Shown: positions 23,563 to 49,806 of the stretch, piece after piece
Layout: each line of letters opens with the position of its first letter
Numbering within the stretch: position 1 is the first letter of the stretch
IMG/VR virus record: IMGVR_UViG_3300010354_000057
Span: 24,109 to 88,108 of that record
DNA: 64,000 nucleotides
Reading direction: 5' to 3' (one strand)
From: a virus
The notes under the pieces: model-generated
Seen by the model: only the letters and a program-made list of their open reading frames with translations
Databases searched by the model: none
What the model was told of the DNA's origin: nothing
Position numbers and translations under genes: made by a program

Positions 23563-23814
23563 ATGTATCAAGAACAATACTTATTTTACTTGCTTATATT
23601 TTCATTTGTTGCATATTTAATTGTAACAGATGAAAGTGTTGCAAGATTTTTTTTATTATATCTTAAAATAATAAGAGTTAATATAGAAAGACTTTTTTGG
23701 ATGATTAGATTTCATCCACTGGTAACAACAAATAAAATTACCCAGTGGTTTATGATGCGTAAATATATGAAGGAGGTCGAAAAAATGCAAAAAGATTTAT
23801 TTAAAAATGATTAG
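23563..23814 (+). CDS. Small membrane protein
   Basis: 83 residues with a hydrophobic N-terminal helix (residues ~5-22, LFYLLIFSFVAYLIV) and a second amphipathic stretch, then a basic helical tail (MRKYMKEVEKMQKDLFKND). Overlaps the radical SAM gene by 8 bases. It could anchor or partner that enzyme, but no domain is recognised. Confidence 0.55.
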   Translation: MYQEQYLFYLLIFSFVAYLIVTDESVARFFLLYLKIIRVNIERLFWMIRFHPLVTTNKITQWFMMRKYMKEVEKMQKDLFKND

Positions 23815-24628
23815 AATACCTCACGAAGTTCAATTACACATAACACATTCTTGCAATCTAACTTGTGAAGGGTGTACGCATTATAGTAATCATGGTCATT
23901 CTGGAATGCTTTCTTTAGAGGAAGGTTCTAAATGGATGGATCTTTGGAATAAAAGAATAATTCCAGAAAGATTTACTATTCTTGGTGGAGAACCAGCTTT
24001 AAATAAAGATCTTACTAAGTTTATATACCTTGCTAAAGAAAAATGGCCTAATTCCTATTTGGAATTAATTTCTAATGGATTTCATTTGCATCGTCATCCA
24101 GATTTACCTAAAGCATTGATTGATACTCAAACCGTTATAGGTATATCCGTTCACACTAGAGAACATCCAGAGTATATTGAAAAATTCAAACCTGTTTATA
24201 AATTAGCTAAAAAATGGTTATTGATGGGTGTTAAAGTTGAAATGAGGCATTCTTCACTAGATTGGTTGAGGCAGTATCAGGGATATGGCGATAAAATGTT
24301 ACCATATGAAGATAATAATCCAGAGTCTAGTTGGAAGAATTGTGTTTCTAGGGCATGTATTCAATTACATGAAGGTAAAATTTGGAAATGTCCTGCTCTA
24401 GCATATTTACCAATGCAAGCAGAGAAGTTTAATCTTTCCGAAAAGTGGGATCCATATCTAAAATATAAACCTTTATTACCAGAGTGTTCTGATGAAGAAT
24501 TAATAGAGTTTTTTAATCGCAAATCGGAAAGTTACTGTAGTATGTGTCCAGCAGAAAAGGAACATTTTAAACCATCTGCTGATCCTTTATTACCCGTTAG
24601 TTATTGGAAAAAACAATACGATACTTGA
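23807..24628 (+). CDS. Radical SAM protein
   Basis: 273 residues. The [4Fe-4S]/SAM motif is Cys16-NLT-Cys20-EG-Cys23, followed by the GGEP motif (FTILGGEPAL, near residue 60). Late Cys residues (CIQLHEGKIWKCPALAY and YCSMCPAEKEH) look like an auxiliary cluster. It is a paralogue of the minus-strand gene at 29076. Radical SAM enzymes with extra clusters often modify peptides or sugars. Its neighbours are two 2OG-oxygenase-like paralogues and two small tandem paralogues, suggesting a joint tailoring step. Confidence 0.85.
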   Translation: MIRIPHEVQLHITHSCNLTCEGCTHYSNHGHSGMLSLEEGSKWMDLWNKRIIPERFTILGGEPALNKDLTKFIYLAKEKWPNSYLELISNGFHLHRHPDLPKALIDTQTVIGISVHTREHPEYIEKFKPVYKLAKKWLLMGVKVEMRHSSLDWLRQYQGYGDKMLPYEDNNPESSWKNCVSRACIQLHEGKIWKCPALAYLPMQAEKFNLSEKWDPYLKYKPLLPECSDEELIEFFNRKSESYCSMCPAEKEHFKPSADPLLPVSYWKKQYDT

Positions 24629-28540: not shown

Positions 28541-29092
28541 ATGTCCTTTATAAAATTAAAAAATAAATTCTTTATTGGACATTATGATGTAATTTCTGGT
28601 AAGTATCAGTATGGTTTAAATACTTCTGATGGATTTTTTGGGATAAAGTATTCATATATTGATCTTTCAAATTATGATGATCTAATTGAAGTAGTTCCAG
28701 AATGTTATAGAGATAGATGTGCTATTTCTTTGATGAATTTAAATTGTAAAGTTCCACCTCATACTGATAGTGGAATTGAGGCAATTATTAATTTCTATGT
28801 TAAGAGTGATAATTGTAAAACTCATTTTTATGAGTTTAAAAATTCAACTCCTAAAACATTTAAATTACCAACACAAAAAGATGGATCTATATTTGATGAA
28901 GATGATTTACATGAAACTGGTAGTTTTATATCCGAAGATGGTGATGCTTATTTACTAGATGTATCAAAACCACATTCAGTAACTCCACTTCACTCTGGAC
29001 CTGTAAATAGAAAAGCAATATGCCTTCAACTGTTATATACTACTTTTGATGAAGCAAAACAAATGTTAGAACAATCTAATCAAATTTTATGA
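28541..29092 (+). CDS. 2OG-Fe(II) oxygenase-like protein
   Basis: 183 residues, starting three bases after the phosphatase stop. KVPPHTDSGIEAIINFYV gives the HxD iron pair and GDAYLLDVSKPHSVTP the distal His, with RKAICLQLLY closing; the pattern is like aspartyl/asparaginyl-hydroxylase-type 2OG enzymes. It overlaps the convergent radical SAM gene by 17 bases. Substrate unknown. Confidence 0.72.
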   Translation: MSFIKLKNKFFIGHYDVISGKYQYGLNTSDGFFGIKYSYIDLSNYDDLIEVVPECYRDRCAISLMNLNCKVPPHTDSGIEAIINFYVKSDNCKTHFYEFKNSTPKTFKLPTQKDGSIFDEDDLHETGSFISEDGDAYLLDVSKPHSVTPLHSGPVNRKAICLQLLYTTFDEAKQMLEQSNQIL

Positions 29093-29924
29093 ATTGGTTT
29101 TTAAATAAATCTTCTGATTCTTTTACAGACATCAGAGGATTTTTTGTATTATGAATATAATTTTTATGTGCTGGACACATACTACAAACTGATTCTGATT
29201 TTCTATTAAAGAATTCTATAATCTGATCTTGATTGCAATTAGGATCTAAAGGTTTATATTTTAAATAAGGATCCCATTTTTCTGACAACTTATATTTCTT
29301 TGCCATTAATGGTAAATATGCGAGAGGTGGACACTTCCAAATCATTCCTTCGTGTAATTGGAAACATGTTCCTTCCATAAAACAATTATTCCAACTTGCT
29401 TCAGCATTGTTATCTTCAAATGGTAATATATTTTCACCATATCCTTTGTAAATTTGTGTCCAATACTCGTGGGTTGTATTTACAGACACATTGATTCCAA
29501 GTTCATTTTTCCATTTTAAACATAATTTTAAATTGTCTTTTATCCTATTAATATAATCTTTTGATTTGCTGTGTATAGATAGTGATAGATTTATATTATT
29601 ATCTTTCAGTGCTTCTCCTAAGTTATTATGGGTGTGTAAGAAAAAACCATTAGTGGTTAATTTTATATAAGTATCTCCCCACATTTCTCTCGATAGATAC
29701 AGGAAATCAATCAAATTTTTATGTAATGTTGGTTCTCCACCAAGTAATATAAATTGTTTTGGTTGAATTCTATTATTCCAATTTCCCATCCACAATCTAC
29801 CTTCTTCAAGACTTATCATTCTAGAGTGTCCATGATTGGTAAAGTCAGAACAACTTTCACATGTTAAGTTGCAATTATGGGTGATGTGAAAGTCTATAAT
29901 TGGTACACTTACTTTTGAATGCAT
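29076..29924 (-). CDS. Radical SAM protein, paralogue of the gene at 23807
   Basis: 282 residues on the minus strand. Cys18-NLT-Cys22-ES-Cys25, LLGGEPTLHKNL, QLHEGMIWKCPPLAYLPL and FNRKSESVCSMCPAH are shared almost motif for motif with the protein at 23807, including the late Cys sets that may hold an extra Fe-S cluster. Inverted relative to its paralogue and divergent from the twitch-type radical SAM gene at 29965; the gap between them is only 40 bases with TATAAT at 29936. Confidence 0.85.
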   Translation of the reverse strand: MHSKVSVPIIDFHITHNCNLTCESCSDFTNHGHSRMISLEEGRLWMGNWNNRIQPKQFILLGGEPTLHKNLIDFLYLSREMWGDTYIKLTTNGFFLHTHNNLGEALKDNNINLSLSIHSKSKDYINRIKDNLKLCLKWKNELGINVSVNTTHEYWTQIYKGYGENILPFEDNNAEASWNNCFMEGTCFQLHEGMIWKCPPLAYLPLMAKKYKLSEKWDPYLKYKPLDPNCNQDQIIEFFNRKSESVCSMCPAHKNYIHNTKNPLMSVKESEDLFKNQFIKFD

Positions 29925-29964
29925 CTTTATTATGATATAATCAGTATATAGTTAGAATATTAAT

Positions 29965-31167
29965 ATGAATAAACCTCATTGTATAGTTCCTTGGGTATAC
30001 TTTTTTGCTGAAGCAAATGGTGATGTTGTTCCATGCTGTGTGAATGATACATTTTTAGGAAATGTTCTAGAACAAGATTACAAAAAAATATGGAACTCTA
30101 GAAAAATGAATAGATTTAGGAGAAGTATGTTAACTCCAGGACCACTTCCAAAATCTTGTCAAATATGTATAGAGAATGAGTTATTAACTAGCGACTATAA
30201 CAACACTTATAATCTTAGAGAATACTATAACAATTTTTTTAAAGACACTTTTGATGAAATTCAATATATTACTAACACTGATGGATCTATAAAGGAAGAT
30301 AAGATAAAATTTAAATCTTTTGTTTTCAAAGTTAGTAATAAATGTAATTTTCAGTGTAGAATGTGTAATGCTAGTAATAGTTCTTTGATAGCTGGAGAAG
30401 TAATAGAAAATCCAAAATTTTATAGAAAATTTGTTGAGGAAAACATAGATGATTTGGAATTAATAGAATTTATTGGTGGGGAATCATTATTAATGAATGA
30501 AACTTATGAATTATTGGAATTTTTAATTCAAAGAAATAAACCACATCCATATCTACATTTTAATACAAATATGTCTATTTTAGGTTTGGGTGGTAAAAAT
30601 ATTTTGGAGTATTTAAATAAATTAAATAAAGATAAGATCGAAATAGTTGCAAGTATAGATGAGATTGACGAGAGATCAGAATATATAAGAAAAAATTGCA
30701 ATTGGAAAACAGTAGAAAAAAACTTACAATTAATTTCTAAACAAAGTTTTAAAACTAACACAAATATTGTTGCTAGTTGTTATAATGTGTTTAGACTTCC
30801 AAAAATAATAGAGCGTCTTGTTGAGATTGGATATATAAATCAAAGAAATAATTACCAAAACTTTATGTTTAATCCAGTTATTGGAGATTGTGATATTTCA
30901 TTGTTAAGTAAAAAATTTAGAAAAAAAATAGATGATGAAATTTATGATTTTCTTTTATATTATAATAAAAAATATAATGTTGATGTCACATATAAATTTA
31001 AAATAATTTTTAGTAAATTAAATCGTGAAGAACCAGAAAATATAGATGATATGAGATTAGAATTTCTAAAAGAAACTTCTAAAAAGGATAAAATAAGAGG
31101 TGAAAAATTATTAAAAGTAATTCCAGAACTTAGAGATATTATTGAATTAATGAGAAATGGAAACTGA
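29965..31167 (+). CDS. Twitch-type radical SAM protein
   Basis: 400 residues. The radical SAM motif is central rather than N-terminal: Cys127-NFQ-Cys131-RM-Cys134, then FIGGESLLMNE. Upstream is a Cys-rich section (IVPW, GDVVPCC, Cys24/25, LPKSCQICIE, Cys65/68) typical of a SPASM/twitch-like auxiliary cluster placed before the core. A paralogue with the same plan lies at 48520-49806. Such proteins occur widely in marine phages and surface-sugar loci with unknown substrates. Confidence 0.82.
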   Translation: MNKPHCIVPWVYFFAEANGDVVPCCVNDTFLGNVLEQDYKKIWNSRKMNRFRRSMLTPGPLPKSCQICIENELLTSDYNNTYNLREYYNNFFKDTFDEIQYITNTDGSIKEDKIKFKSFVFKVSNKCNFQCRMCNASNSSLIAGEVIENPKFYRKFVEENIDDLELIEFIGGESLLMNETYELLEFLIQRNKPHPYLHFNTNMSILGLGGKNILEYLNKLNKDKIEIVASIDEIDERSEYIRKNCNWKTVEKNLQLISKQSFKTNTNIVASCYNVFRLPKIIERLVEIGYINQRNNYQNFMFNPVIGDCDISLLSKKFRKKIDDEIYDFLLYYNKKYNVDVTYKFKIIFSKLNREEPENIDDMRLEFLKETSKKDKIRGEKLLKVIPELRDIIELMRNGN

Positions 31168-31654
31168 TATTTTATTGGAACTATCTGCGAAATATGCGAG
31201 ATACAATTTTCATAAAGAAGAAGAACCAGTTTTTAAAGCATTCTCTGAAACTTCTTCATTAATGTCCTTTGAAGAATATAAAAAATGGGTTAAGCAAAAG
31301 TTTGAAAATTATTATTCTATTATTTGCTTAATGTGGAAAGGTGATGAAAATAGAATTGAAACACAACTATTAGATGACTATACAAATTTGGTTGATCTTT
31401 ATTCTGAAAAAAATGAAAATGTTAATCCAATAATAGGTGAAGATATGAGAAATCTTAAAGATCTATTATCATTTGCAATATATTTTTGTGAATATAGAAT
31501 ACAGCATATTACATTTGATAAATTTTCTGAAGGAAAAAGTTATCAAGAAATATTATACGATACTCAGTATTTTAGGGAGAAAAAAGATTTATGGTTAACC
31601 CAATATGATAAAGTAATGGAAAAAATTCATGCCGATCTTACCCATTCAGCATAA
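31157..31654 (+). CDS. Hypothetical helical protein
   Basis: 165 residues (METDILLELSAKYARYNFHK), mostly helical, soluble and acidic, with aromatic-rich mid part (FENYYSIICLMWKGDENR). It overlaps the preceding radical SAM gene by 11 bases and the convergent methyltransferase gene by 28. No family recognised; possible partner of the radical SAM protein. Confidence 0.6.
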   Translation: METDILLELSAKYARYNFHKEEEPVFKAFSETSSLMSFEEYKKWVKQKFENYYSIICLMWKGDENRIETQLLDDYTNLVDLYSEKNENVNPIIGEDMRNLKDLLSFAIYFCEYRIQHITFDKFSEGKSYQEILYDTQYFREKKDLWLTQYDKVMEKIHADLTHSA

Positions 31655-32148
31655 ATTCTATGGTTACTATCATATTTCAAATCTACACATGTAAATTTGA
31701 AATGTTCTGCAAACTTTAAATGTAAATCATAAGACCAAGGAAAAAAGTCTATTTTTTGACATTCTTTATTTTCATGATCTTGTCTACCTGGATTACATCT
31801 CCAGTAAATTCTTGATGTTGGTTTTAGTAACTTTACTACAGAACTAATTTCTGATATAATTTTGTCTCCTGGTCCAAAATTAATACTACCAAGACAAAAA
31901 GCAACATCAAATCTTTGATCTGTTTTGAATTTATCTATAGTAACTTTATAATCTGCTTCATCAAATGCGGGATCTATTCCAATTAAATTTTTAATTTTAC
32001 TTTTGAATGGATTTGGTCCACAACCAACATCTAAAACCCACTCATCATCCGCAATATTGTTTATTAAATTCCAACCAGAATATAAGTATTGATCTAAATT
32101 ACTGGTCCATTTTGTTGCAAAGTATTCATTCAATTGCTCTTGTTTCAT
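31627..32148 (-). CDS. Class I SAM-dependent methyltransferase
   Basis: 173 residues from the minus-strand ATG at 32148; the frame stays open upstream but would then run through the next gene. WVLDVGCGPNPF is methyltransferase motif I, LIGIDPAFDEADY motif II, and FDVAFCLGSINFG the motif-IV region. Its start codon shares two bases with the divergent sulfotransferase-like gene's ATG. Target unknown; context suggests glycan or small-molecule methylation. Confidence 0.72.
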   Translation of the reverse strand: MKQEQLNEYFATKWTSNLDQYLYSGWNLINNIADDEWVLDVGCGPNPFKSKIKNLIGIDPAFDEADYKVTIDKFKTDQRFDVAFCLGSINFGPGDKIISEISSVVKLLKPTSRIYWRCNPGRQDHENKECQKIDFFPWSYDLHLKFAEHFKFTCVDLKYDSNHRIYAEWVRSA

Positions 32149-32725
32149 GAAATTACCTAAAAGAATATTTTTTACTGGAGTTCCTGGATCCCGTTGGAGT
32201 GGTATCGCACAGACGCTAGAAATGATGTCTGGTATGAATACCTCTGACCGCACACCTGAGCGTGAATACGTTCATCATAGTTATACTGGACACAAAGGAG
32301 CGTATTTTGGACCTGGCATGGAGTTTGAACCAATTCTTGATCCAGATTATATTGATCAGGCATGGATTGAACCTCAGGGGTGTAAACTTGTTAAAAGTCA
32401 TGAATGGTCTTATTATCTAGGTGAAATCCGTCAGAAGTTTCCAGACGACTGGATAATGATGGTTTATCGTCCTGATATGACTAGTTATGCATGGTGGCAT
32501 GAAGCTGGAGGTTTTCAAATACAATATCCTAATTATTCTCATTATAAAAATAGTAGTGTTATGCTATGTGAAATAATGCAACAAAACTCTTTTATTTTAA
32601 AATTTGGTATGGAAAATAAATGTAGTTGGGAATATTTTAATGAAGAATGGGTGCAGAAAAATTTTAATCAACAGATTATAGTGAATAATGTTCATAATGA
32701 CATTTTAGTAACTTTGATAAAATAA
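32147..32725 (+). CDS. Sulfotransferase-like P-loop protein
   Basis: 192 residues. IFFTGVPGSRWSGIAQ is a glycine-rich loop like the PAPS 5'-phosphosulfate loop of sulfotransferases, followed by HHSYTGHKGAYFGPGMEFE, a segment I recall in cyanophage proteins of this type. Starts divergently on top of the methyltransferase ATG. First of eight nucleotide-binding, sulfotransferase-like genes running to 39776. Confidence 0.6.
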   Translation: MKLPKRIFFTGVPGSRWSGIAQTLEMMSGMNTSDRTPEREYVHHSYTGHKGAYFGPGMEFEPILDPDYIDQAWIEPQGCKLVKSHEWSYYLGEIRQKFPDDWIMMVYRPDMTSYAWWHEAGGFQIQYPNYSHYKNSSVMLCEIMQQNSFILKFGMENKCSWEYFNEEWVQKNFNQQIIVNNVHNDILVTLIK

Positions 32726-32729
32726 GAAA

Positions 32730-33602
32730 ATGTCTTTAATAGGAATTCATAAATGGACTGACATAAATTGTCCAGAGTATAAAATATTTGATACGAACAA
32801 ACAGGATGTAGATATTTCTTATTATAACGATCTTGGATATGAAGCATTTGATCCAAATCAAAAAAATGTAATACTTATATTTTTTAAAAGTGGATCTGGA
32901 GGTTTGTTTTTAGGAAATTGTTTATCTCTAAGTGATAATTTTTTATGCAAATACAAGAATATAGATGAGAAATTAAATTTTTTAAAAGAAAGTATTAAAT
33001 CACAAGAAGTATTTTGGAATGATATTTACCTTAGTTCAATAGTAGACTATGGTGATGTTGAAAACACTGAAAAATATTCTTTAGTATATGATCATAATCC
33101 TAAAACCATAAAGTATCATTTTAAACATTGGAAAAATTTAAATGTTATATATTTTAAAAATCCAGATCTTTTTTGTAGAGTAAGAAGAGTTTTAAAGAAT
33201 TTTAATGGATATATTTCACATACTAGTTCAGAAAAAATAAAAAAAGTAGAAGTAAAAGAAATACCAAAATCAATTAAACAATATAGATCTCTTTCTAAAA
33301 AAGATCAAAATTTTTTAAAAGAGCTTTATTTTAGTGATGAAAAACTTTATACGTCTTCATTTTTAAATAACAAGAAACTATTTTACGTTTGGGACACAAA
33401 TTGGTATTTTTCTGAGGAAGATACTGTAACTCATATTAAAGAACTTTATGATCTTTTTAATTTATCTGGGTTTAATGAATATGCTATAAAAGAATATTAT
33501 AAAATATGGATTGAAAAGATAGATGATTTGAGAACTTTGGATTTTAATAGTATTAAACATTTATCCGAAGATCAAAATACATTTGATAGAAGTATTTTTT
33601 AA
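32730..33602 (+). CDS. Sulfotransferase-like family protein, paralogue 1 of 5
   Basis: 290 residues. Family marks: loop FFKSGSGGLFLGNCLSLS (residues 51-68), VIYFKNPDLFCRVRRVLKN, which could be the 3'-phosphate-binding element of a sulfotransferase, and VWDTNWYFSEEDTV in the C-terminal third. The same three blocks occur in the genes at 34659, 35615, 37201 and 38052. Strict Walker A Lys-Ser/Thr is missing. The 90-base stretch at 33369-33458 is base-identical to the paralogue at 34659. Confidence 0.6.
   Translation: MSLIGIHKWTDINCPEYKIFDTNKQDVDISYYNDLGYEAFDPNQKNVILIFFKSGSGGLFLGNCLSLSDNFLCKYKNIDEKLNFLKESIKSQEVFWNDIYLSSIVDYGDVENTEKYSLVYDHNPKTIKYHFKHWKNLNVIYFKNPDLFCRVRRVLKNFNGYISHTSSEKIKKVEVKEIPKSIKQYRSLSKKDQNFLKELYFSDEKLYTSSFLNNKKLFYVWDTNWYFSEEDTVTHIKELYDLFNLSGFNEYAIKEYYKIWIEKIDDLRTLDFNSIKHLSEDQNTFDRSIF
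33369..33458 (+). repeat. 90-base exact repeat, copy 1
   Basis: Identical over 90 bases to 35361-35450, and over 75 bases to 36317-36391, including every wobble position, whereas flanking sequence of the three genes has diverged. It codes for the conserved WDTNWYFSEEDTVTHIKEL block. Confidence 0.95.
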
Positions 33603-33603
33603 T

Positions 33604-33632
33604 TTGACACTAAATAGTTTTTTGATTATAAT
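33604..33632 (+). promoter_or_regulatory. Consensus sigma-70 promoter (TTGACA-N17-TATAAT)
   Basis: TTGACA 33604-33609 and TATAAT 33627-33632 with a 17-base spacer, immediately after the preceding stop. It points to the ferritin-like gene. Confidence 0.85.
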
Positions 33633-33671
33633 AGATTTGTTATCATGATGATTTGAAATAAATCTTTATTT

Positions 33672-33679
33672 TATAAATA
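33672..33679 (+). promoter_or_regulatory. T4-type late promoter (TATAAATA)
   Basis: Exact match to the T4 late promoter octamer, 37 bases before the ATG of the ferritin-like gene and downstream of the sigma-70 promoter, giving that gene an early and a late start. Confidence 0.65.
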
Positions 33680-33716
33680 ATAATAAATTAAAGTAGGTTA
33701 CTACGGAGTTAAAAAA

Positions 33717-34391
33717 ATGCTTTCTGGAAAAGAATTTGTACAAAAAATCAAGAGAGAGAATGCTGAACTTTTTGAACAATCTCGCGTGAATGTTCGTCGT
33801 TTCTTTGCTTCAAACCCAAGCAAGGAGCACATGGTTGAGCATTTCCGTGGCCGCATGGTAAACGAAGCAATGAACATGAAAGCAATCGCTGCTGAGGTTG
33901 CTGCTGCTCCAGCATCTATGGATGTTACCGAACTTGAACTGCTGACTAAGCAAGCACAAGATGAGGCAAAGCACTTCCGTATGGTGAAGGAAGTTATTGA
34001 GCACATTTCTGGTGAGAAAGTAGATGTTGATGCTGCTTTCGCCGCAGAAGCTGCTGCTCCACAAGCAAAAGGTGCTACTCTACTCGATAAGTATGGTGCA
34101 TCTGAGGATCCTGCTGCTCTTGCTGCATATCAACTCGTCGCTGAGGGTCGTGCAGAGGCAGTCTGGAACGAAATGGCAGAGTGTGTAGAAGATGAATTCA
34201 TTTCTTCACGTTATGCTGCTATTGCTAAGGACGAAGGTTTCCACGCTAATATTGGTGGTTGGAAACTTGAGAAACTTGTAGAAGGTGCTGCTGACCTCCA
34301 GGAGCGCATTCTTGCAATGGTTGCTCAAATGCGTTCGGATCTTCTTGAAATCAGCAACAAGAACACCGCTGTTCCTTTTGCTGCTATCTGA
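33717..34391 (+). CDS. Ferritin-like di-iron carboxylate protein
   Basis: 224 residues, all helical. Two ExxH motifs, Glu83-AK-His86 and Glu173-GF-His176, with further Glu at 50 and 143/147 give the six-ligand di-iron pattern of a four-helix ferritin-like bundle. An Ala-rich insert (residues ~104-120) separates the halves. Codons are GC-richer and much more C-ending than in neighbouring genes, and the gene has its own consensus early and late promoters, so it looks like a separately acquired, highly expressed cassette placed between members of one paralogous family. Oxygenase, oxidase or iron storage roles are all possible. Confidence 0.78.
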   Translation: MLSGKEFVQKIKRENAELFEQSRVNVRRFFASNPSKEHMVEHFRGRMVNEAMNMKAIAAEVAAAPASMDVTELELLTKQAQDEAKHFRMVKEVIEHISGEKVDVDAAFAAEAAAPQAKGATLLDKYGASEDPAALAAYQLVAEGRAEAVWNEMAECVEDEFISSRYAAIAKDEGFHANIGGWKLEKLVEGAADLQERILAMVAQMRSDLLEISNKNTAVPFAAI

Positions 34392-34407
34392 TAGATAAAA
34401 ATATATT

Positions 34408-34662
34408 ATGAGTACTTTTGAAACAAGGCAACGTAAAGATAAAACTCGCATAATTAAGTGGGTTAGTGCCAGTACAATACTCATCGCAATGGTGTTTCAT
34501 GTATTGGGGCTAACCCCTTGGAATAGCATCCTACAATTAATTGGTGCATCTGGTTGGACTTATGTTGGATTTAAATGGAAGGAACGTTCAATCATAATGA
34601 ACTTCCTTCCACAATTTTTTATTATCATACCTGGATTATTTTATTTGTTTTTTATAAAATGA
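34408..34662 (+). CDS. Small two-helix membrane protein (DUF6552-like)
   Basis: 84 residues with two hydrophobic helices (about 17-35 and 61-82, FLPQFFIIIPGLFYLFFIK). The middle (QLIGASGWTYVGFKWKERSII) recalls a small membrane family of marine bacteria and phages, tentatively DUF6552. TGA overlaps the ATG of the next paralogue. Confidence 0.6.
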   Translation: MSTFETRQRKDKTRIIKWVSASTILIAMVFHVLGLTPWNSILQLIGASGWTYVGFKWKERSIIMNFLPQFFIIIPGLFYLFFIK

Positions 34663-35615
34663 CTAAAGAGGTTGATGAATTAAAAAATTCTTTAGATTTT
34701 AGTAAAATTAGGATAGGTTCACATCGATGGAATGTTCAGTCTGGTAGAGACCTTGAATATATTGAATGGGATAGTCTTCCAGAAGATGTAGATGAACAGA
34801 GAGATAATCTATCAAGATATTTTTACGATCGTGATTATGAGAATGTTTTACTAATATTTTTTAAAAGTGGTGCTGGTGGATTATTTCTATCAAATTGTTT
34901 AGCATTGAGTGATAGTGTTGGTAGTATTTTTATAGACATAGAAGAAAAAATAAGATTTTTTAATAAGTACCTTGAATCTCAAAAAGTTTTTTGGAATGAT
35001 TGTTATATAAACAATACTTCTCCAGAAATTCATCAAAATAACAAAGAATATTTTAGAAAAAAATATCATTTTATTTACGAACATAATCCAAAATATATAA
35101 AAAGACATTTAAAGTTTTGGAGTAAATGTAACGTAATATACTTTACAAATCCAGATTTATTCTGTAAAATAAGGCAGTTATTAAAAAATATAGATGGTAA
35201 TCTAGGATATATTAGTTATGAACATGTTAAACCTGATTTAACTGGGTATTCTGTACCAAAAAGTTTTAAAGACTTTTTTAATCTTCCCAAAGAAAGACAA
35301 GAAATTTTAAAAAATGTCTACAAGAGTGAAGAAAATATAAATTCTTTTTGTTTTTCAAAGAACAAGAAACTATTTTACGTTTGGGACACAAATTGGTATT
35401 TTTCTGAGGAAGATACTGTAACTCATATTAAAGAACTTTATGATCTTTTTGGATTTAATGATTTTAACGCTGATGTAGTATCTCAGTTTTATAGAAAGTG
35501 GATTTCTAAATTAGATGAACTTTCCATAAGAGAAATTCCTGATAATATACAAGAGTTACTTAAAAATGAAAAAAATTTTGATAAATCTATAACCTCTTTT
35601 TGGGACTTATACTAA
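34659..35615 (+). CDS. Sulfotransferase-like family protein, paralogue 2 of 5
   Basis: 318 residues from the ATG at 34659 (ATGA overlap); the longer frame would run through the membrane protein gene. Blocks: SHRWNVQSGRDLEYIEWD near the start, loop FFKSGAGGLFLSNCLALS, IYFTNPDLFCKIRQLLKN, VWDTNWYFSEEDTV. Closest to the next gene product, with which it shares SHRWN, LEYI-WD, YDRDYE and the C-terminal plan. Carries the 90-base exact repeat. Confidence 0.6.
   Translation: MTKEVDELKNSLDFSKIRIGSHRWNVQSGRDLEYIEWDSLPEDVDEQRDNLSRYFYDRDYENVLLIFFKSGAGGLFLSNCLALSDSVGSIFIDIEEKIRFFNKYLESQKVFWNDCYINNTSPEIHQNNKEYFRKKYHFIYEHNPKYIKRHLKFWSKCNVIYFTNPDLFCKIRQLLKNIDGNLGYISYEHVKPDLTGYSVPKSFKDFFNLPKERQEILKNVYKSEENINSFCFSKNKKLFYVWDTNWYFSEEDTVTHIKELYDLFGFNDFNADVVSQFYRKWISKLDELSIREIPDNIQELLKNEKNFDKSITSFWDLY
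35361..35467 (+). repeat. Exact repeat, copy 2
   Basis: 35361-35450 equals 33369-33458 (90 bases) and 35376-35467 equals 36317-36408 (92 bases). The two matches overlap, so this copy is the link between the other two. Confidence 0.95.
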
Positions 35616-36556
35616 TGAATAAAAAAATTAATTTAGGATCTCATAGGTGGAATCCTTTGTCAAATAGAAGTCTTGAATACATTAAATGGGATAAAGTTCC
35701 AGAAGATGTGCAATATCAAAGAAAAAACCTCAAAAGATCTTTTTATGATCGTGATTATGAAAAAGTTATAGTTTTGTTTTTTCAAAGTGGGTCTGGTGGG
35801 TTATTTTTAGCTAATTGTCTATCATTAAGTAATTCTGTTTGTAGTTCATTTGTACACGTAAATGAAAAAATACAATTACTTAATAATTATTTGAAGAGAC
35901 AGAAAGGAACTTTTTGGAATGATCTTTATATTAATAATTATTATCCAGAATTATTTCAAGAAGATGGAGAAAATAAAGAAGAGGGAATATGGCATACTAC
36001 AGATGGGTACTTCTTTATTCATGAACACGAAGCTAAAAATATACCAATTCATTTAGAATTTTGGAATAATGCTAATATGATATATTTCAAAAATCCAGAT
36101 CTTTTTTGTAAGATTAGGAAACTCCTTAAGAATATTGATGGTAGACTTGGGTATATGAGTTACGAACCACTTAAACAAACTAAAGAACAATATCCAATTC
36201 CATCGAGTTTTTCTGAATTTTTTAAATTATCTAAAAAAGAACAGGAAGAGTTAAAAGATGTATATAAAAGCGCAGACATATATACATCATCATTTTTAAA
36301 GAATAAAAAATTATTATACGTTTGGGACACAAATTGGTATTTTTCTGAGGAAGATACTGTAACTCATATTAAAGAACTTTATGATCTTTTTGGATTTAAT
36401 GATTTTAATAAAAAGGCAATAATTAACTATTACAATCAGTGGATCGAAAAATTGGATGAATTAAGTTCTAGACCAATACCTAATAATTTGCCAGAACTGA
36501 TTGGAAATAAAACTAATTATGATGTTCCTATAAGTAACTTTAAAGATTTAAAATGA
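35615..36556 (+). CDS. Sulfotransferase-like family protein, paralogue 3 of 5
   Basis: 313 residues from the ATG at 35615, which shares a base with the preceding TAA. SHRWNPLSNRSLEYIKWD, loop LFFQSGSGGLFLANCLSLS, IYFKNPDLFCKIRKLLKNIDG, VWDTNWYFSEEDTV. An insert of about 10 residues (QEDGENKEEGIWHTTDG) is absent from paralogues 1 and 2. Tandem with paralogue 2, so a local duplication is likely. Confidence 0.6.
   Translation: MNKKINLGSHRWNPLSNRSLEYIKWDKVPEDVQYQRKNLKRSFYDRDYEKVIVLFFQSGSGGLFLANCLSLSNSVCSSFVHVNEKIQLLNNYLKRQKGTFWNDLYINNYYPELFQEDGENKEEGIWHTTDGYFFIHEHEAKNIPIHLEFWNNANMIYFKNPDLFCKIRKLLKNIDGRLGYMSYEPLKQTKEQYPIPSSFSEFFKLSKKEQEELKDVYKSADIYTSSFLKNKKLLYVWDTNWYFSEEDTVTHIKELYDLFGFNDFNKKAIINYYNQWIEKLDELSSRPIPNNLPELIGNKTNYDVPISNFKDLK
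36317..36408 (+). repeat. Exact repeat, copy 3
   Basis: 92 bases identical to 35376-35467; the first 75 also match the copy at 33 kb. Confidence 0.95.
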
Positions 36557-36581
36557 TTAGTAAAGTATTTTGGTGTTTCAA

Positions 36582-37208
36582 ATGAAAAAAATGGTAATTC
36601 TTACTGGACCTCAAGGATCTGGTAATCATCTATGGTCTAAGATATTTTCACTACATCCAAATGTATTTGGATGGAAAACTTTACTTGAAAACTACTGGGA
36701 AGCGCATAGATTTGCTGAACCATTTTGTGAATATTGGAAAGATATAACAAAACTCAAAGATTTTGATTGGTCTACACATGATTATTTTTTTACCAGTATT
36801 AGTGTTCCTCTGGGAATTAAAGAAACAAAATGGGAACCTAATATTATGAAGTTTTCTAATGAAGTAGAAAATTTGGGCATTAAAACTCAAATAGTTGTAG
36901 TTGGTAGAGATCAAAATATTCTGAGGCATCAGCAAAATCGCCTTAGAAAGGAGAGTACTCTTCCGCATTTCATGAAACAACTTCCAGAGTTTCCTAATCC
37001 TATATTTTTAAGTTATGAACTTCTTTATCTTTATAAGCAGGATTATTTGAAGTCTTTGGATGTTGGGATTCCAATCGCTTGGGATGATCCAAGAATTGAT
37101 GATATATTAACTAATGACCCTAATGATAAGTATGTTCATCATGTGGAAGAGTATTTTTTAGATAGATGTAATAGAACGGGAATTCCATTAAAACAGATAA
37201 ATGAGTAA
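36582..37208 (+). CDS. Sulfotransferase-like P-loop protein, paralogue of the gene at 39123
   Basis: 208 residues from the ATG at 36582. VILTGPQGSGNHLWSKIFSLHP (residues 4-25) is the nucleotide loop; VVVGRDQNILRHQQNRLR gives the mid-protein Arg/Asp element, and YVHHVEEYFLDR near the end is shared with the protein at 39123. This family is known, to my memory, in several T4-like cyanophages. It interrupts the run of the other sulfotransferase-like family. Confidence 0.65.
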   Translation: MKKMVILTGPQGSGNHLWSKIFSLHPNVFGWKTLLENYWEAHRFAEPFCEYWKDITKLKDFDWSTHDYFFTSISVPLGIKETKWEPNIMKFSNEVENLGIKTQIVVVGRDQNILRHQQNRLRKESTLPHFMKQLPEFPNPIFLSYELLYLYKQDYLKSLDVGIPIAWDDPRIDDILTNDPNDKYVHHVEEYFLDRCNRTGIPLKQINE

Positions 37209-38049
37209 TTATGATCTAGATTTATCAAATTATATAAAATTACAACTCATAGAATCTACTGATGATGAGTATATAATTTATAAGCAAAGTGAAAATTTTT
37301 TTCCAGAAGGAAATTTTCACTTTGTTCATAAAAATTATGATAAGATTATTTTGGTTATATATCCCTTTGCTTCTGGTGGAAATTTTTTAATTAATTGTTT
37401 ATCGTTGAGTAACGATATTGCATCATCTCTTAAATCTTTATCAGACAAGATTAAATTTTTGGATAGTTCTCTTTCTTCTCAAGAAAAACACTGGGAAGAT
37501 TTTCTTATCAATGACAAATTTTTTACTTATAGTGATGTAAAGAGTAAAAAAAAGGAAAAATATTTTTTTATAAAAACGCATTTAGTAAATAAAATAAAAA
37601 ATCAGTCTACTAATCTTTCGGATACATCAAATAATATAAATTATCACTTAAAAAATTGGAAAAACTGTAAAAAAATAATATACATAAAAAACACAAGACT
37701 ATTTTGTAATCTTAGAAGATGTATTTTAAAAAAATCTGTGGAAAATGGATTATACGAAAAAATACCCTTACAAATTGGGGATTATTTTAAATTATCGGAT
37801 GATAAGAAAGAATTATTGAAGAAAATATACAACGATAAAATTCAAAAATATTCTTATTGTGATATTCAATCTAAAATTGAATATTATGTATGGGATGCTA
37901 ATTGGTATTTGTCAGAACAAGATACTATTTTTAACATTAGACAATTTTATGATGCTATTGGACTGTCTCAATTTAATGAAAAATATTTAAAACATTTTTA
38001 TAACTCTTGGATGAATACTATCATAAGACTTAGAAAAATTGATTTGTAA
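37201..38049 (+). CDS. Sulfotransferase-like family protein, paralogue 4 of 5
   Basis: 282 residues, overlapping the preceding gene by 8 bases. Loop YPFASGGNFLINCLSLSND, KNTRLFCNLRRCIL, and YYVWDANWYLSEQDTIFNIRQFYD. More diverged than paralogues 1-3 and without the exact nucleotide repeat; extremely AT-rich. Confidence 0.55.
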   Translation: MSNYDLDLSNYIKLQLIESTDDEYIIYKQSENFFPEGNFHFVHKNYDKIILVIYPFASGGNFLINCLSLSNDIASSLKSLSDKIKFLDSSLSSQEKHWEDFLINDKFFTYSDVKSKKKEKYFFIKTHLVNKIKNQSTNLSDTSNNINYHLKNWKNCKKIIYIKNTRLFCNLRRCILKKSVENGLYEKIPLQIGDYFKLSDDKKELLKKIYNDKIQKYSYCDIQSKIEYYVWDANWYLSEQDTIFNIRQFYDAIGLSQFNEKYLKHFYNSWMNTIIRLRKIDL

Positions 38050-38051
38050 TT

Positions 38052-38771
38052 ATGTGGCAACCATTCTTCCCTTCACTATATGATTTTAGTTATACTAATC
38101 ATAATGATAGAATAAAAAATTTTTATTCCACATTCAAATTTAAAAATAATAAAAATTCTATTATAGTTATTTTTGATGGAGGATCTGGTGGAGGATTTCT
38201 TGTCAATTGTTTATCTTTAAGTGATAAGATAGGATCTACTATTAATAATAAAATTGATTTTCTTTTAGGGAAATTAGATAATATGGGTGTTGTTTGGGAA
38301 GACTTTCATTTAAATAATATTATTGAAGATGGTAAATATTTTTTTATTTTAGATCACCCCTTTACCTCAAAAGTTCTCAAATATCACCTAAAAACGTGGA
38401 ATAGTAAAATAGTAATATTATTTAAAAATACTAATTATTTTTGTAAACTTAGAAGATGTGTTTGGAATGTTAATGGTGAAATATGTTATGATGAAGAATA
38501 TAAAGATGGAATTATTAAAACTGAAAATAAATTAGAGAGATACAATGATAAAAATCAAACATATTCTTTTTGTGATTTAGATAATAAGATTAATTTTTAT
38601 ATTTGGGATACTAATTGGTATTTTTCTTTTGAAGAAACTATTTTTAATTTAAATCAATTATATAATTTATTGGAATTGGGGAGTATTGACGAAAAAGCAA
38701 TAAAGAAGTATTATAATGTTTGGATAAAAAAAATTAATGATCTAAAAAATATATCTGTAAAACATGGATAA
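38052..38771 (+). CDS. Sulfotransferase-like family protein, paralogue 5 of 5
   Basis: 239 residues, the shortest member. Loop IFDGGSGGGFLVNCLSLSD, KNTNYFCKLRRCVWN, FYIWDTNWYFSFEETIFNL. Shares FCKLRRC with paralogue 4, so 4 and 5 form a subgroup. The central region between loop and KNT block is shortened. Confidence 0.55.
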   Translation: MWQPFFPSLYDFSYTNHNDRIKNFYSTFKFKNNKNSIIVIFDGGSGGGFLVNCLSLSDKIGSTINNKIDFLLGKLDNMGVVWEDFHLNNIIEDGKYFFILDHPFTSKVLKYHLKTWNSKIVILFKNTNYFCKLRRCVWNVNGEICYDEEYKDGIIKTENKLERYNDKNQTYSFCDLDNKINFYIWDTNWYFSFEETIFNLNQLYNLLELGSIDEKAIKKYYNVWIKKINDLKNISVKHG

Positions 38772-39120
38772 TTATTCAAAATTAATAAATGTATCTGAAA
38801 GTATAGATGCGACTGAAGAACAATTATTAAAATTGTCTAACCATAAACATTATGGAATAAGATATAGAGTTGCAAAAAATGTAAATACAACAGAAAGTAT
38901 TTTGTCTAATCTTGTTGATGACAATACTATATCTGTTAGATACGAAGTTGCTAGAAATAAAAATACAAATCTCAGGGATTTGGTAAAATTATTAAAGGAT
39001 AAAAGTTCTATAGTTGTTATTGCTGCCAAAAATAATTTAGAAGAAAGAACAAAAAAAGAAATAACAACTCCAGATACTATAGGAATAAGAAAAGTTAAAT
39101 TAATAACCGAACATTTTTGA
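38764..39120 (+). CDS. Variant-leucine-rich/HEAT-like repeat protein
   Basis: 118 residues with three ~25-residue repeats: EEQLLKLSNHKHYGIRYRVAKN, ESILSNLVDDNTISVRYEVARN, and LVKLLKDKSSIVVIAAKNN. The pattern (L..L....-VR..VA.N) is that of variant leucine-rich repeats, which usually bind proteins. It overlaps its neighbour by 8 bases. Likely a partner or adaptor rather than an enzyme. Confidence 0.65.
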   Translation: MDNYSKLINVSESIDATEEQLLKLSNHKHYGIRYRVAKNVNTTESILSNLVDDNTISVRYEVARNKNTNLRDLVKLLKDKSSIVVIAAKNNLEERTKKEITTPDTIGIRKVKLITEHF

Positions 39121-39122
39121 AA

Positions 39123-39776
39123 ATGAAAAAACTTTTAATCATCACAGGACCACAAGGATCTGGTAATCATTTCTTTAGTAGAGTATTCAGTACACATCCA
39201 GAAGTTGGTGGATGGAAAAGTCTTCTTGAAAAGTATTGGGTTCCTAGTGATGAAGAATACTTTGCAAGATACTGGGTTTATCCTGAGGAACTTACGAAAA
39301 AAGATTTTGAAGGATATGATTATTGGTTGGCAAATGTAAGTTGCCCATTCTTTTATGATGGGGTCAGGTATGTCCCAAAGATTAAAGAAGTTGCAGAGAA
39401 AGCACAATCATTTGGAATTGATGTTCAGATTGCAATTATTGTAAGAGATCCGAATATCAATGGTCAGCAGCAACTGAGAGTTCGTGGAGAAATTACAATT
39501 CCTATTGCACAAGATTACTACTACAATACTCTTATTCCTGCAGGATTTAAAGTTCACTTCCTAGATAATGAGGCGTTTTTCTTACACAGAGGACATTATC
39601 TCAAATGGGTAAGTGAACTTTTAGATTTCCCTGTGGACTATAACAATCCTGATATTTTTAAGTTTATTACTGAAGATCCTAATAAAAAATATGTGAATTA
39701 TGTTGATGAATATTGGCTTGACAAAGAGGTGTGGGATGGGATAAGATCTAAGAAAGATAGGAATTTACATTCATGA
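39123..39776 (+). CDS. Sulfotransferase-like P-loop protein, paralogue of the gene at 36582
   Basis: 217 residues from the ATG at 39123. LLIITGPQGSGNHFFSRVFS and VGGWKSLLEKYW match the paralogue; AIIVRDPNINGQQQLRVRGE provides the RDPN element that resembles the 3'-phosphate site of sulfotransferases. Last member of the 32-40 kb set; the small ORF at 39773 follows with an overlap. Confidence 0.65.
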   Translation: MKKLLIITGPQGSGNHFFSRVFSTHPEVGGWKSLLEKYWVPSDEEYFARYWVYPEELTKKDFEGYDYWLANVSCPFFYDGVRYVPKIKEVAEKAQSFGIDVQIAIIVRDPNINGQQQLRVRGEITIPIAQDYYYNTLIPAGFKVHFLDNEAFFLHRGHYLKWVSELLDFPVDYNNPDIFKFITEDPNKKYVNYVDEYWLDKEVWDGIRSKKDRNLHS

Positions 39777-39952: not shown

Positions 39953-40025
39953 AATAAAAGATTACATTTATTTACGAAAATTGAGAAAAAGATTAAATAA
40001 GAAAGATCCCTTTATATACAAATGA
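39951..40025 (+). other. Open frame ending in the same DPFIYK tail as the ORF at 42791
   Basis: This frame has no ATG but reads IYLRKLRKRLNKKDPFIYK to a TGA at 40023-40025 that overlaps the carbamoyltransferase ATG. The 33-residue ORF at 42791 ends in KEDPFIYK. A TTG at 39981 could start a 14-residue peptide. It may be a small gene with an unusual start or the remnant of one. Confidence 0.4.
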
Positions 40026-41446
40026 TAACCTGGGGAATTTCATCGGAAAGTCATAATGCAGCACTTTCAGTATTCGTAAGTGATAGACTTGTATTTGCAA
40101 GTGAAAGTGAGAGGTTTAGTGGTATTAAAAACGACCCATACTTAAATGATGGCATAATTAACTATGCACTTAAGTTTGGAAACCCTGAATTGGTCTGTTG
40201 GTATGAAAATCCGTATAAGAAAACACTTCGACAACTTCTTGCGGGACAGGGATGGATACAAAACGTCAAGAAGTATGTTGATGCTCCAATCAAGTATTAT
40301 GATCATCACTATACTCATGCTTGTGCTGGTTATTTCACCAGCAAGTTTGATGAATGTTGTGTGGTGGTTATTGATGCTATAGGAGAATTTCAAACACTCA
40401 CAATATGGGAAGCGAAAGGAAATAAACTAAAACTTAAATTTCAACGTAGATATCCACACAGTATAGGACTTTGGTACTCTGCAATGACCCAAAGATGTGG
40501 ATTAAAACCAAATGAAGAAGAATATATCCTCATGGGCATGTCTGCTTATGGGGATAAAAGAGTATGTGAAGATGCAATATATGATGATTTCATTGGATTT
40601 AGAACATCAACTTTTAAGAAAAATTTACATAAAGGATGTGAAGATTGGAGACCAAATATAAAAAACAATTTTCATATTGCTGCAGCAACTCAAAGCGTTT
40701 ATGAAACAATGTTTAGAGATGTTCTTCAGAGAGCATCTAATATTGTAAAAAGTAATAACTTAGTTCTTATGGGTGGATGCGCCTTAAATTGTGTTGCAAA
40801 TCCTATTGCATATTATTACTATGATAATGTGTGGATTATGCCTGCTCCTGGTGATAATGGATCTGCAATTGGTGCAGTTCTTGCACATAAGAAACATCAT
40901 ATTGATTGGCATGGACCATACTTGGGTTATCGCATTCAACCAGTTTCAACAAATGAAGAGATTGTTGATCATCTTTTAGAACATAAGTTGTGTGGACTTG
41001 CCAGAAATCGTGCAGAGTTTGGTCCTAGATCTTTAGGTAATCGTAGTTTACTCGCAGATCCTCGTGATCCTAATATTAAATCTGTTGTGAATGATATAAA
41101 ACAAAGGCAACAGTTTAGACCATTTGCACCAGTAATTATGGAAGAGTATGTTGAACAATATTTTAGAATGCCTATGAAAACATCTCCTTATATGCAATAT
41201 GCAGTGAGATGTAAACAGTCTAAAAATTTCCCTGCAATTGTCCATATAGATAAAACAAGTAGAGTTCAGACTGTAAATAAATCTCAGAATGTAGAACTTT
41301 ATAATCTTTTGAAGTTATGGTATGAAAAAACTGGTTGCCCAATGCTTTTGAATACAAGTTTAAATATTAAAGGAAAACCAATTGTTAATGATGAAAAAGA
41401 TTGTAAAGAATGGGAAGAAACATATGGAGTTAAAGTATTCTCATGA
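40022..41446 (+). CDS. Carbamoyltransferase (NodU/CmcH family)
   Basis: 474 residues. The N-terminal Kae1/ASKHA-type domain has ITWGISSESHNAALSV, YYDHHYTHACAGYF with the metal-binding His95/96/99, and VLMGGCALNCVANP; the C-terminal domain has EFGPRSLGNRSLLADPRD and FRPFAPVI. These enzymes carry carbamoyl from carbamoyl phosphate, through an adenylate, to a hydroxyl group of a sugar or antibiotic. Such genes are widespread in T4-like cyanophages without a proven substrate. Neighbouring SGNH and sugar-type genes fit a glycan role. Confidence 0.9.
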   Translation: MITWGISSESHNAALSVFVSDRLVFASESERFSGIKNDPYLNDGIINYALKFGNPELVCWYENPYKKTLRQLLAGQGWIQNVKKYVDAPIKYYDHHYTHACAGYFTSKFDECCVVVIDAIGEFQTLTIWEAKGNKLKLKFQRRYPHSIGLWYSAMTQRCGLKPNEEEYILMGMSAYGDKRVCEDAIYDDFIGFRTSTFKKNLHKGCEDWRPNIKNNFHIAAATQSVYETMFRDVLQRASNIVKSNNLVLMGGCALNCVANPIAYYYYDNVWIMPAPGDNGSAIGAVLAHKKHHIDWHGPYLGYRIQPVSTNEEIVDHLLEHKLCGLARNRAEFGPRSLGNRSLLADPRDPNIKSVVNDIKQRQQFRPFAPVIMEEYVEQYFRMPMKTSPYMQYAVRCKQSKNFPAIVHIDKTSRVQTVNKSQNVELYNLLKLWYEKTGCPMLLNTSLNIKGKPIVNDEKDCKEWEETYGVKVFS

Positions 41447-46489: not shown

Positions 46490-47701
46490 ATGATAAAAGA
46501 ACTACTTGAAAACAACTATATTGTTGTACCAAACTTTATTGAAAAGGATAATGCAATTAAATTATCCAATGAATTTAAATTATATTCTGAAAAGAATTCT
46601 CTTGTTGGTGATAGTCAGGTAGAGAATTCTCACTCAAAATATGATTATATTTCTTTTTTGGAACTTTTGTGTGAAAAAACTCCAGAAGTTTCTAGAATTA
46701 TTGGTGAAACTGTTTTACCAACTTATTCTTATGCTAGAGTATATAAACACGGAAATATTCTTCCACCTCATGTTGATAGAAAAGCATGTGAAATATCACT
46801 AACTGTAAATTTAGATTGTGATATTATTTGGGATATTTGGATTTCGACGCCAACTGGTGAAAAAAGATCTATTAAGTTAGGTCCTGGTGATGCTATGATA
46901 TATCTTGGGTGTGCTGCAACACATTGGAGAGAAGAATTTAATGGTGAGTTTTGCTCTCAGGTATTTCTTCATTATGTTAGAAGTCGTGGTCCTTATTCAA
47001 ATGTATATTTTGATAAGAAAGAATGTAAAGTATCCAATGATATTTTAGAAGAAAAAGATATCCAGCAAGAAACAAATACTTCACCGACTTTAATTGTTAA
47101 AGATGATGTAAGAAAAGAAGCAATTATCACTTATAAAAGTAAGACACCTTTAGATGAGTACATTAAAATATTTTATAATGTAGTTTCTGATGAAGATTGT
47201 AATCTTATTCTTGACGAGTATGCTTCAAGTAGTGATTGGGTTGAGAGTAGAACTGGTGATGGTAATGTTAACAAACATATAAGAAATTGCGATATCATAA
47301 GTATTTCGCAAGCAAATACCATCATTAAAAATCCAGAAACAAGACAAAAGATTGATCACTTGTTGTTTAATGCTTCTGGAAAAGCATTAAAAGAATACAT
47401 TCAATTATTTCCTCATTGTGAAGTGAATACTGACAGTGGATATGATTTATTGAAATATGAAGTTGGTGGGTATTATTCTTTGCATACAGATTCATTTAAA
47501 GATATTCCACGATCAGTATCTTGCTCATTTAATCTAAATGACAATTATGAAGGTGGTGAGTTTGCATTTTTTGATAAAGAATTAGTTATTCGCGCTCCAA
47601 AAGGTTCTGCAATAGTATTTCCATCAAATTTCATGTATCCTCATGAAATAATGGAAGTTAAAAAAGGAACTAGATATTCCGTGGTAACCTGGTTTATTTG
47701 A
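46490..47701 (+). CDS. Two-domain 2OG-Fe(II) oxygenase (P4H-like C-terminus)
   Basis: 403 residues made of two jelly rolls. Domain 1 (to ~180): LPPHVDRKACEISLTVNLD with HxD, then GDAMIYLGCAATHWREEF with the distal His and Arg. Domain 2 (~215-403): GGYYSLHTDSF with HxD, GSAIVFPSNFMYPHEIMEV and RYSVVTWFI, the prolyl-4-hydroxylase-type pattern. Both domains keep metal residues, so both may be active. Overlaps the next oxygenase gene by 4 bases. Confidence 0.8.
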   Translation: MIKELLENNYIVVPNFIEKDNAIKLSNEFKLYSEKNSLVGDSQVENSHSKYDYISFLELLCEKTPEVSRIIGETVLPTYSYARVYKHGNILPPHVDRKACEISLTVNLDCDIIWDIWISTPTGEKRSIKLGPGDAMIYLGCAATHWREEFNGEFCSQVFLHYVRSRGPYSNVYFDKKECKVSNDILEEKDIQQETNTSPTLIVKDDVRKEAIITYKSKTPLDEYIKIFYNVVSDEDCNLILDEYASSSDWVESRTGDGNVNKHIRNCDIISISQANTIIKNPETRQKIDHLLFNASGKALKEYIQLFPHCEVNTDSGYDLLKYEVGGYYSLHTDSFKDIPRSVSCSFNLNDNYEGGEFAFFDKELVIRAPKGSAIVFPSNFMYPHEIMEVKKGTRYSVVTWFI

Positions 47702-48519: not shown

Positions 48520-49806
48520 ATGAGAACTACACCTTGGTGCGTAATGCCCTGGACGTATCTTGAAATTTTAACTACAGGAGATATTACTCCATGTTGTGCT
48601 AGTTATTATCTCTATGGTAATGTTAAAGAAAAAAGTGTAGAACAAATATGGAATGATGAACCAATAAAAAAACTTCGTCTTGATATGTTCAATGACCAAC
48701 TACCAGAAGCATGTAGAGTATGTAAAGAAATTGAAGATACTGGTAGTGAATGTAGTTTAAGGATTGCAAATAATAAGAAATTGAAGTCAACATTTGATGA
48801 TATAAAAAACATTACAAATGAAGATGGATCTATTTCTCAACTAAAGTTTAGAGGATGGGATTTTAAACTAAAAAATAAATGTAACTTTAAATGTAGGACA
48901 TGTACTCCTTGGGAAAGTGAGTTAATAGCAAAAGAAAACAAGGAAATAGTTGATAGAAAGGATCATTTTACTTCGGTAAAGGGGTCCTTTGATTCTGATG
49001 AAGTTCCTACACTAGAAAATACTTGCCAATCAGTAACAGATCATTTTGATTTTCGTCAATTTGCTTTGGATCAAATTGATAATTTGGAAATGATTGAATT
49101 TGCTGGAGGTGAAACACTTATAATGGATGAACATTATGAGTTGCTTGACATTTTATTAGAACACAGCAAAACTGATATTCACTTGTCATATAATACTAAT
49201 ATGTCAATTATGAAATACAAGTCTTATCATGTATTAGATTATTGGCGTAAATGGAACCCAGAAAAATTAACTGTAATTGGTAGTATTGATGAAATTGGAA
49301 CTAGGGCAGAATATATTAGAAAGGGAACCGTGTGGAGTGTTGTTGAGAAAAACTTAAAGACTATAGTTTCTGAAGGATTTCAAAGAAGAACTAATAGTGT
49401 TATAGGATGTCATAATGTATTCAGATTGCCAGAGTTAATTACATATTTGACAGATATAGATTACATTTCACCAAAATTTGATTGTTTAAATTTTGATTTA
49501 TCTGTGGAAATATGTAATTATGACCTAAGAGTATTATCAAATGAATTTAAGGATAATATTATAATTAAACTTAAAAATTTCATAGAAGATTACAACATTA
49601 AATATAAAACTGATATTACTAGTAAATTTGTCCATGTTATAGAAACTCTTAAAGAACCTCATCATATAAAGTATGCAATGAGATATCTCAAAGAAACTAT
49701 TAAGAGGGATAAATTTAGAAAAGAAAATACATTTCAGATCATTCCAGAGATGGAAGATGTCAAACGAAGTGTAAAAAGATATAAAGAACAATATAATGTA
49801 AAGTAA
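48520..49806 (+). CDS. Twitch-type radical SAM protein, paralogue of the gene at 29965
   Basis: 428 residues. N-terminal Cys section (CVMPWTYLEILTTGDITPCC, LPEACRVCKE: Cys7, 25, 26, 65, 68), then the SAM motif Cys121-NFK-Cys125-RT-Cys128 and EFAGGETLIMDE. Both paralogues share SIDEI-R-EYIRK and VFRLPE/K. An extra ~30-residue segment (VTDHFDFRQF region) is present here only. It is 18 kb from its paralogue. Confidence 0.82.
   Translation: MRTTPWCVMPWTYLEILTTGDITPCCASYYLYGNVKEKSVEQIWNDEPIKKLRLDMFNDQLPEACRVCKEIEDTGSECSLRIANNKKLKSTFDDIKNITNEDGSISQLKFRGWDFKLKNKCNFKCRTCTPWESELIAKENKEIVDRKDHFTSVKGSFDSDEVPTLENTCQSVTDHFDFRQFALDQIDNLEMIEFAGGETLIMDEHYELLDILLEHSKTDIHLSYNTNMSIMKYKSYHVLDYWRKWNPEKLTVIGSIDEIGTRAEYIRKGTVWSVVEKNLKTIVSEGFQRRTNSVIGCHNVFRLPELITYLTDIDYISPKFDCLNFDLSVEICNYDLRVLSNEFKDNIIIKLKNFIEDYNIKYKTDITSKFVHVIETLKEPHHIKYAMRYLKETIKRDKFRKENTFQIIPEMEDVKRSVKRYKEQYNVK

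Follow-up and report, generated by a model that had tools for sequence, protein, structure and literature searches.

What does a phage do with eight P-loop-type genes packed into a single island? The question is raised by positions 31627-39776 of a 64,000-nucleotide stretch of viral DNA (positions 24,109 to 88,108 of IMG/VR record IMGVR_UViG_3300010354_000057; hereafter the window), where an original prediction, made from the letters alone, had placed a sulfotransferase-like island composed of a five-member paralogous family and three related P-loop genes. The window comes from an 88,108-base viral record, and because this record carries T4-like genes (a UvsW-type helicase, a baseplate hub/lysozyme, a T4 Rnl1-type RNA ligase and an S74 tail-fibre gene) and the window gives short DNA matches to Synechococcus phages, the virus is, judged from its sequence, an uncultured T4-like, cyanomyovirus-related phage. 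Our analysis resolves the eight genes into three families, A, B and C, of which B and C belong to a multi-enzyme cassette that recurs in other phages and in two bacterial chromosomes, while family A varies strongly in number and sequence. We propose, with a probability of roughly 0.45, that the island is a cassette for chemical group transfer (decoration), in which the family A proteins may serve as changeable arms that choose the target.

All eight P-loop-type open reading frames are present at the predicted starts, those at 34659, 36582 and 39123 being in-frame ATGs within slightly longer mechanical reading frames. The five-member family is real. Its genes, all on the plus strand, lie at 32730..33602 (290 residues), 34659..35615 (318 residues), 35615..36556 (313 residues), 37201..38049 (282 residues, with a literal IKTHL sequence) and 38052..38771 (239 residues); the proteins are 32-60% identical in pairs (tblastn E values of 1e-116 to 1e-31) and have 37 invariant columns in common. 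Shared motifs comprise a G-G-x-F-L-x-N-C-L loop, W-x-D, a late His, N-x(7)-R and a Y-x-W-D-x-N-W-Y block. The three further genes exist as predicted, but they fall into two families: family B, represented by the 192-residue protein of 32147..32725 (plus strand), and family C, represented by 36582..37208 and 39123..39776 (both plus strand, 38% identical), with a B to C profile match (P 0.0085) confined to the P-loop region. P-loop genes are not all that the island contains: methyltransferase, ferritin-like, DUF6552 and 118-residue protein genes are interleaved with them, the first transcribed divergently; all are overlapping or tightly packed, except for a 114-base gap preceding the ferritin-like gene. 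In searches with single proteins, none of the curated models in Pfam, PHROG and NCBIfam reaches its cut-off for families A, B or C, and nothing credible was matched in PDB sequence searches with the three families. The best weak library matches (MitoNEET_N, DASH_Dad2, Cas6_N and PRISE) are mutually incoherent and were treated as chance.

The sulfotransferase assignment is carried by family C through its predicted fold and by family B through its profile. An AlphaFold2 model of the family C protein at 39123 (pLDDT 94.4) finds human TPST1 as its best Foldseek match (E 3.3e-6, probability 1.00, TMq 0.49), with adenylate kinases as the second fold group (E from 9e-5, TMq about 0.40). The family C profile aligns over 164 columns (P 3.9e-5) with a sulfotransferase reference profile that we built ourselves from bacterial PF13469 and PF00685 matches, whereas its alignment with adenylate kinases is limited to an 18-column loop (P 2.3e-4). 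The Walker A pattern GxxxxGK[ST] is absent from that loop, which reads GPQG[SAT]GNH with Asn in place of Lys in all 74 family members (mean column identity 48%). Taken together, the model and the profile support a sulfotransferase fold for family C, and the prediction for these two genes is borne out at this level. For family B, PF13469 (Sulfotransfer_3) matches 11 of 33 homologs with a best E value of 3.1e-4, the Janthinobacterium homolog scoring 19.9 bits against a cut-off of 27. Family B matches the reference profile in hhalign at P 8.2e-7, whereas two kinase profiles give P 0.036 and 0.15. Sulfotransferases have a catalytic K-[ST]-H motif, which family B keeps as K83-S84-H85 in 33/33 homologs; its loop, GxPGS[RK]WS, departs from Walker A. 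The sequence comparisons thereby support family B as a sulfotransferase-superfamily protein that does not reach the curated PF13469 cut-off, in line with the original proposal.

Family A is the most divergent of the three. Among 57 distant members, G61, F64, L65, C68, L69, K85, W101, D103, I156, N160, F164 and R168 (numbered as in 35615) are invariant or nearly so, with N160 found in 53/57 and R168 in 55/57; H138 is present in 49/57. The AlphaFold2 model of 35615 (pLDDT 87.5, pTM 0.88) retrieves PAPS (3'-phosphoadenosine-5'-phosphosulfate) sulfotransferases at ranks 1-27 of a Foldseek search of the PDB, led by SULT2A1 and SULT2B1 at E values of 0.011-0.03, a TM score of about 0.33 and 10-17% identity. 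Viral proteins annotated as sulfotransferases are also among its top matches in BFVD, and in profile comparisons the family is significantly linked to family C alone, through the loop (P 5.9e-5). Since the PDB matches reach only E 0.011 with low TM scores and the profile comparison with sulfotransferases gives P 0.1, we grade family A as a probable divergent member of the fold; the marginal fold match and the collinear motifs agree with the original proposal for this family, but the profile does not. A 'kinase' entry (8t8v, E 6e-4) covers only some 64 residues near the C-terminus and was not accepted as homology. In record L002, a 455-residue family A protein (14770-16137) looks as if two family A units had been fused.

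A comparison of the donor sites helps to explain in what respect the three families depart from known sulfotransferases. Reference proteins carry an Arg followed at +8 by a Ser in the 3'-phosphate site (24 of the 29 in which the site could be located) and a canonical K/R pattern in the 5'-phosphosulfate loop (29/37). With anchors picked by motif order rather than by structural superposition, the equivalent 3' positions are R108 (32/33) and W116 at +8 (33/33) in family B, R108 and Q116 (74/74) in family C, and N...R (53/57) in family A. The spacing between the two conserved residues is exactly 8 in all three, as in the canonical R...S pair. The 5'-loop has no Lys or Arg in any of the 74 family C proteins and no conserved one in family A, where Lys is only a minority residue, while in family B a basic residue sits one position later, within GxPGS[RK]WS (32/33). 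The caveat of the original prediction that key residues differ proved correct: the 3'-phosphate Ser is replaced throughout, and the 5'-loop Lys/Arg is absent from C and unconserved in A. The three families thus resemble sulfotransferase relatives whose donor site has been rebuilt, and PAPS use is not supported by the sequences of A and C.

A survey of gene neighbourhoods over IMG/VR, as the original prediction had suggested, reveals a conserved multi-enzyme cassette that the prediction did not contain. Scans combined with gene mapping recover a recurring set of a minus-strand methyltransferase, family B, a ferritin-like gene, a DUF6552 or cupin gene and one or two family C genes. Family B, family C and the ferritin-like gene occur together in 42 merged records (including the window and two bacterial chromosomes), 38 of which also carry the methyltransferase; records sharing protein tails were merged, so that 42 is a lower bound and copy counts per group may be inflated. 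Among 50,697 catalogued phage records, queries with family A, family C and the ferritin-like protein gave no match, and family B found one single-cell marine virus (44%) and otherwise chance-level matches. A family C motif scan of 84,980 species genomes returned five loci. Two lie in isolate chromosomes of Oxalobacteraceae, Massilia atriviolacea and Janthinobacterium sp. UMAB-56, on 410- and 260-kb contigs with ordinary housekeeping neighbours; the remaining three are on short contigs of metagenome-assembled genomes (MAGs) and could be misbinned phage. Both isolates combine family B, the methyltransferase, the ferritin-like gene, a cupin and family C. The cassette is present in 2/295 sampled Oxalobacteraceae genomes, and the ferritin-like gene in 1/369 and 1/385 genomes of two classes, each time in the genome on which the search was centred. 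No family A relative appeared in the bacterial genome scan, and a family A hidden Markov model run against 367 genomes of one class (Alphaproteobacteria, judged from a MAG title) gave only a match at E 0.005 over 43 positions; DUF6552 gene neighbourhoods in bacteria offered nothing informative. Phages are the main carriers of the cassette, which is rare on bacterial chromosomes.

Set against this conserved core, family A is hypervariable. Its copy number ranges from 0 to 7 per record, and between the window and records L004-L007 the core genes are 80-97% identical while the family A copies are 28-47% identical. In the family tree, the window shares orthologous sets with L001 and L002, and the five tandem copies in L025 go back to an expansion of their own; family A has expanded independently at least twice. 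This pattern suggests a specificity or arms-race component mounted on a fixed machine.

The partner genes indicate what such a machine might consist of. The class I S-adenosylmethionine (SAM)-methyltransferase-like protein (31627..32148, minus strand) has a VLDVGCGPNPF motif and is divergently paired with family B, as it is in most cassettes; Pfam gives no match at E 0.01 for the window protein, and the Janthinobacterium homolog matches PF08241 (Methyltransf_11) at E 3.4e-7. The ferritin-like protein (33717..34391, plus strand) has a complete carboxylate/His diiron signature in which both E/ExxH sets are present, the ligands E50, E83xxH86, E143/E147 and E173xxH176 being invariant in 20 homologs (72% mean column identity). 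It is the best-conserved member of the cassette (92-97% identical among close relatives and 63% identical to its bacterial counterpart), with weak matches to Ferritin_2, AurF, R2-like oxidase and symerythrin, none of which passes a curated family cut-off. Almost no close relatives of this protein lie outside cassettes, and no characterised homolog was found. The small membrane protein at 34408..34662 (plus strand) belongs to DUF6552 (PF20189, E 3.9e-13), and the 118-residue protein at 38764..39120 (plus strand; HEAT-repeat PF02985 at 19.5 bits, below the cut-off of 23.5) is an accessory of close relatives, seen in few contigs.

Tailoring enzymes also populate the surroundings of the island (radical SAM/SPASM, carbamoyltransferase, 2-oxoglutarate oxygenase). 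A NodU/TobZ-type carbamoyltransferase (40022..41446, plus strand; PF16861 E 2.8e-52, PF02543 E 4.9e-36) begins 245 bp downstream; only a minority of contigs have it after family C, as an accessory of close relatives, and it is for this reason not counted as conserved core. An upstream accessory neighbour is the twitch-domain radical SAM/SPASM protein at 29965..31167 (plus strand; NF033640, 243.8 bits against a cut-off of 170), one of several radical SAM proteins in the record (window 29076-31167, 23807-24628 and 48520-49806). The two-domain protein at 46490-47701 of the window joins a C-terminal 2OG-Fe(II) oxygenase (PF13640) to an N-terminal part matching PHROG families labelled ferrochelatase. 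Upstream of the cassette in record L006 (1795-3806) are two tandem O-fucosyltransferase-type glycosyltransferase-like proteins, recognised by reading alone from their HIRRG/HLRRG motif. The bacterial cassettes (L146:2188-8645 and L145:17-8651) include a 2H-phosphoesterase and an alkaline-phosphatase-superfamily gene (PF00884) whose nucleophile position is occupied by Thr, a combination that hints at chemistry on phosphate esters and not on sulfate esters; this neighbouring 'sulfatase' was dropped as evidence of sulfate chemistry because Thr (PYTSASHAS) stands where sulfatases carry Cys or Ser.

In the decoration reading that we prefer, the conserved core (methyltransferase, family B, a diiron ferritin-like oxygenase, DUF6552 or cupin, and one or two family C proteins) would make or activate a modified group, the oxygenase, methyltransferase and cupin tailoring a compound and B and C perhaps acting on an activated donor. 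The family A proteins would then be interchangeable transferases or binders that place the group on particular targets, candidates being a tail fibre, a host surface glycan or a small molecule; such a role would explain why A alone varies in number and sequence. Tail-fibre-type genes and tailoring enzymes nearby are compatible with decoration of a surface structure, without proving it. Several points weigh against this reading: the fold match of family A is marginal (E 0.011, TM about 0.33) and its profile match to sulfotransferases is not significant (P 0.1), the canonical PAPS-site residues are substituted in all three families, none of which reaches a curated Pfam cut-off, and 18 of the 42 merged records lack a family A gene within the available stretch. 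A more specific form of the proposal, in which a near-frozen core with a possibly non-PAPS donor site is combined with re-amplified hypervariable transferases that select targets in a chemical analogue of tail-fibre switching, seems to us rather unlikely.

Three alternatives can be set beside this reading. It is possible, although we doubt it, that family A, and perhaps C, consists of catalytically dead sulfotransferase-fold binders that an arms race has diversified and that serve, for example, as adaptors, as inhibitors of host proteins or as receptor-like decoys. The replaced donor-site residues of family A, with N...R for R...S in 53/57 members and no conserved 5'-loop Lys/Arg, would fit such a role, as would variation in sequence and copy number far exceeding that of the core, but W101, D103, H138, N160 and R168 are kept at only 20-30% identity and have the look of an active or ligand site, and family C is strongly conserved across its 74 proteins. 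That the three families are instead P-loop kinases or other NTPases is improbable. The family C loop GPQGSGNH does resemble Walker A with NH for KS, and adenylate kinases do form its second PDB fold group, yet TPST1 tops the list at a TMq of 0.49 against about 0.40, the adenylate kinase profile match is confined to the loop, the Walker A Lys is missing from every family C protein, and family B favours sulfotransferases by orders of magnitude. Very improbable, finally, is a cassette that hypermodifies phage DNA: published phage carbamoyltransferases act on 5-hydroxymethylcytosine in DNA (PMC8670742) and a carbamoyltransferase gene lies just downstream, but most cassettes have no such gene, and the cassette also resides in ordinary bacterial chromosomes.

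Phages are reported to carry sulfotransferase genes with no known role, as has been stated explicitly (PMC10580990), and our searches of an open-access library turned up no paper on this cassette. With three unnamed families that have the sulfotransferase fold or a likely form of it, two of them in a conserved cassette found in uncultured phages and on two bacterial chromosomes, the question of role becomes testable, since the Massilia and Janthinobacterium copies sit in culturable hosts open to deletion; the frozen core beside a hypervariable family A points to an arms race over specificity.

The closest known systems include Sulfotransfer_3 proteins (PF13469) and TPST1/2. They share with the window proteins the predicted fold of family C, the weak sequence matches and profile match (P 8e-7) of family B, and the order of a 5'-loop, K-S-H (in family B), a 3'-site strand-loop-helix and a late strand-helix; the window proteins differ in falling below the curated cut-off, in the replacement of the Ser of the 3' site and, for families A and C, of the Lys/Arg of the 5'-loop, and in the shorter B and C chains of about 190-220 residues. 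In fold, family A comes closest in the PDB to cytosolic SULT2A1 and SULT2B1, but shares only 10-17% identity with them and has N...R in place of their R130/S138-type pair. Adenylate kinase and other P-loop kinases share the P-loop fold and rank second among the fold matches of family C, which lacks the Walker A Lys and resembles them in profile over the loop only. The phage-annotated sulfotransferases of Synechococcus phages S-SRM01 and S-SCSM1 and of OM43 phages (PMC10580990) are likewise viral proteins with a sulfotransferase fold or domain; in contrast to families A, B and C, they have recognisable Sulfotransfer_3 domains (PMC10580990) or carry sulfotransferase annotations.

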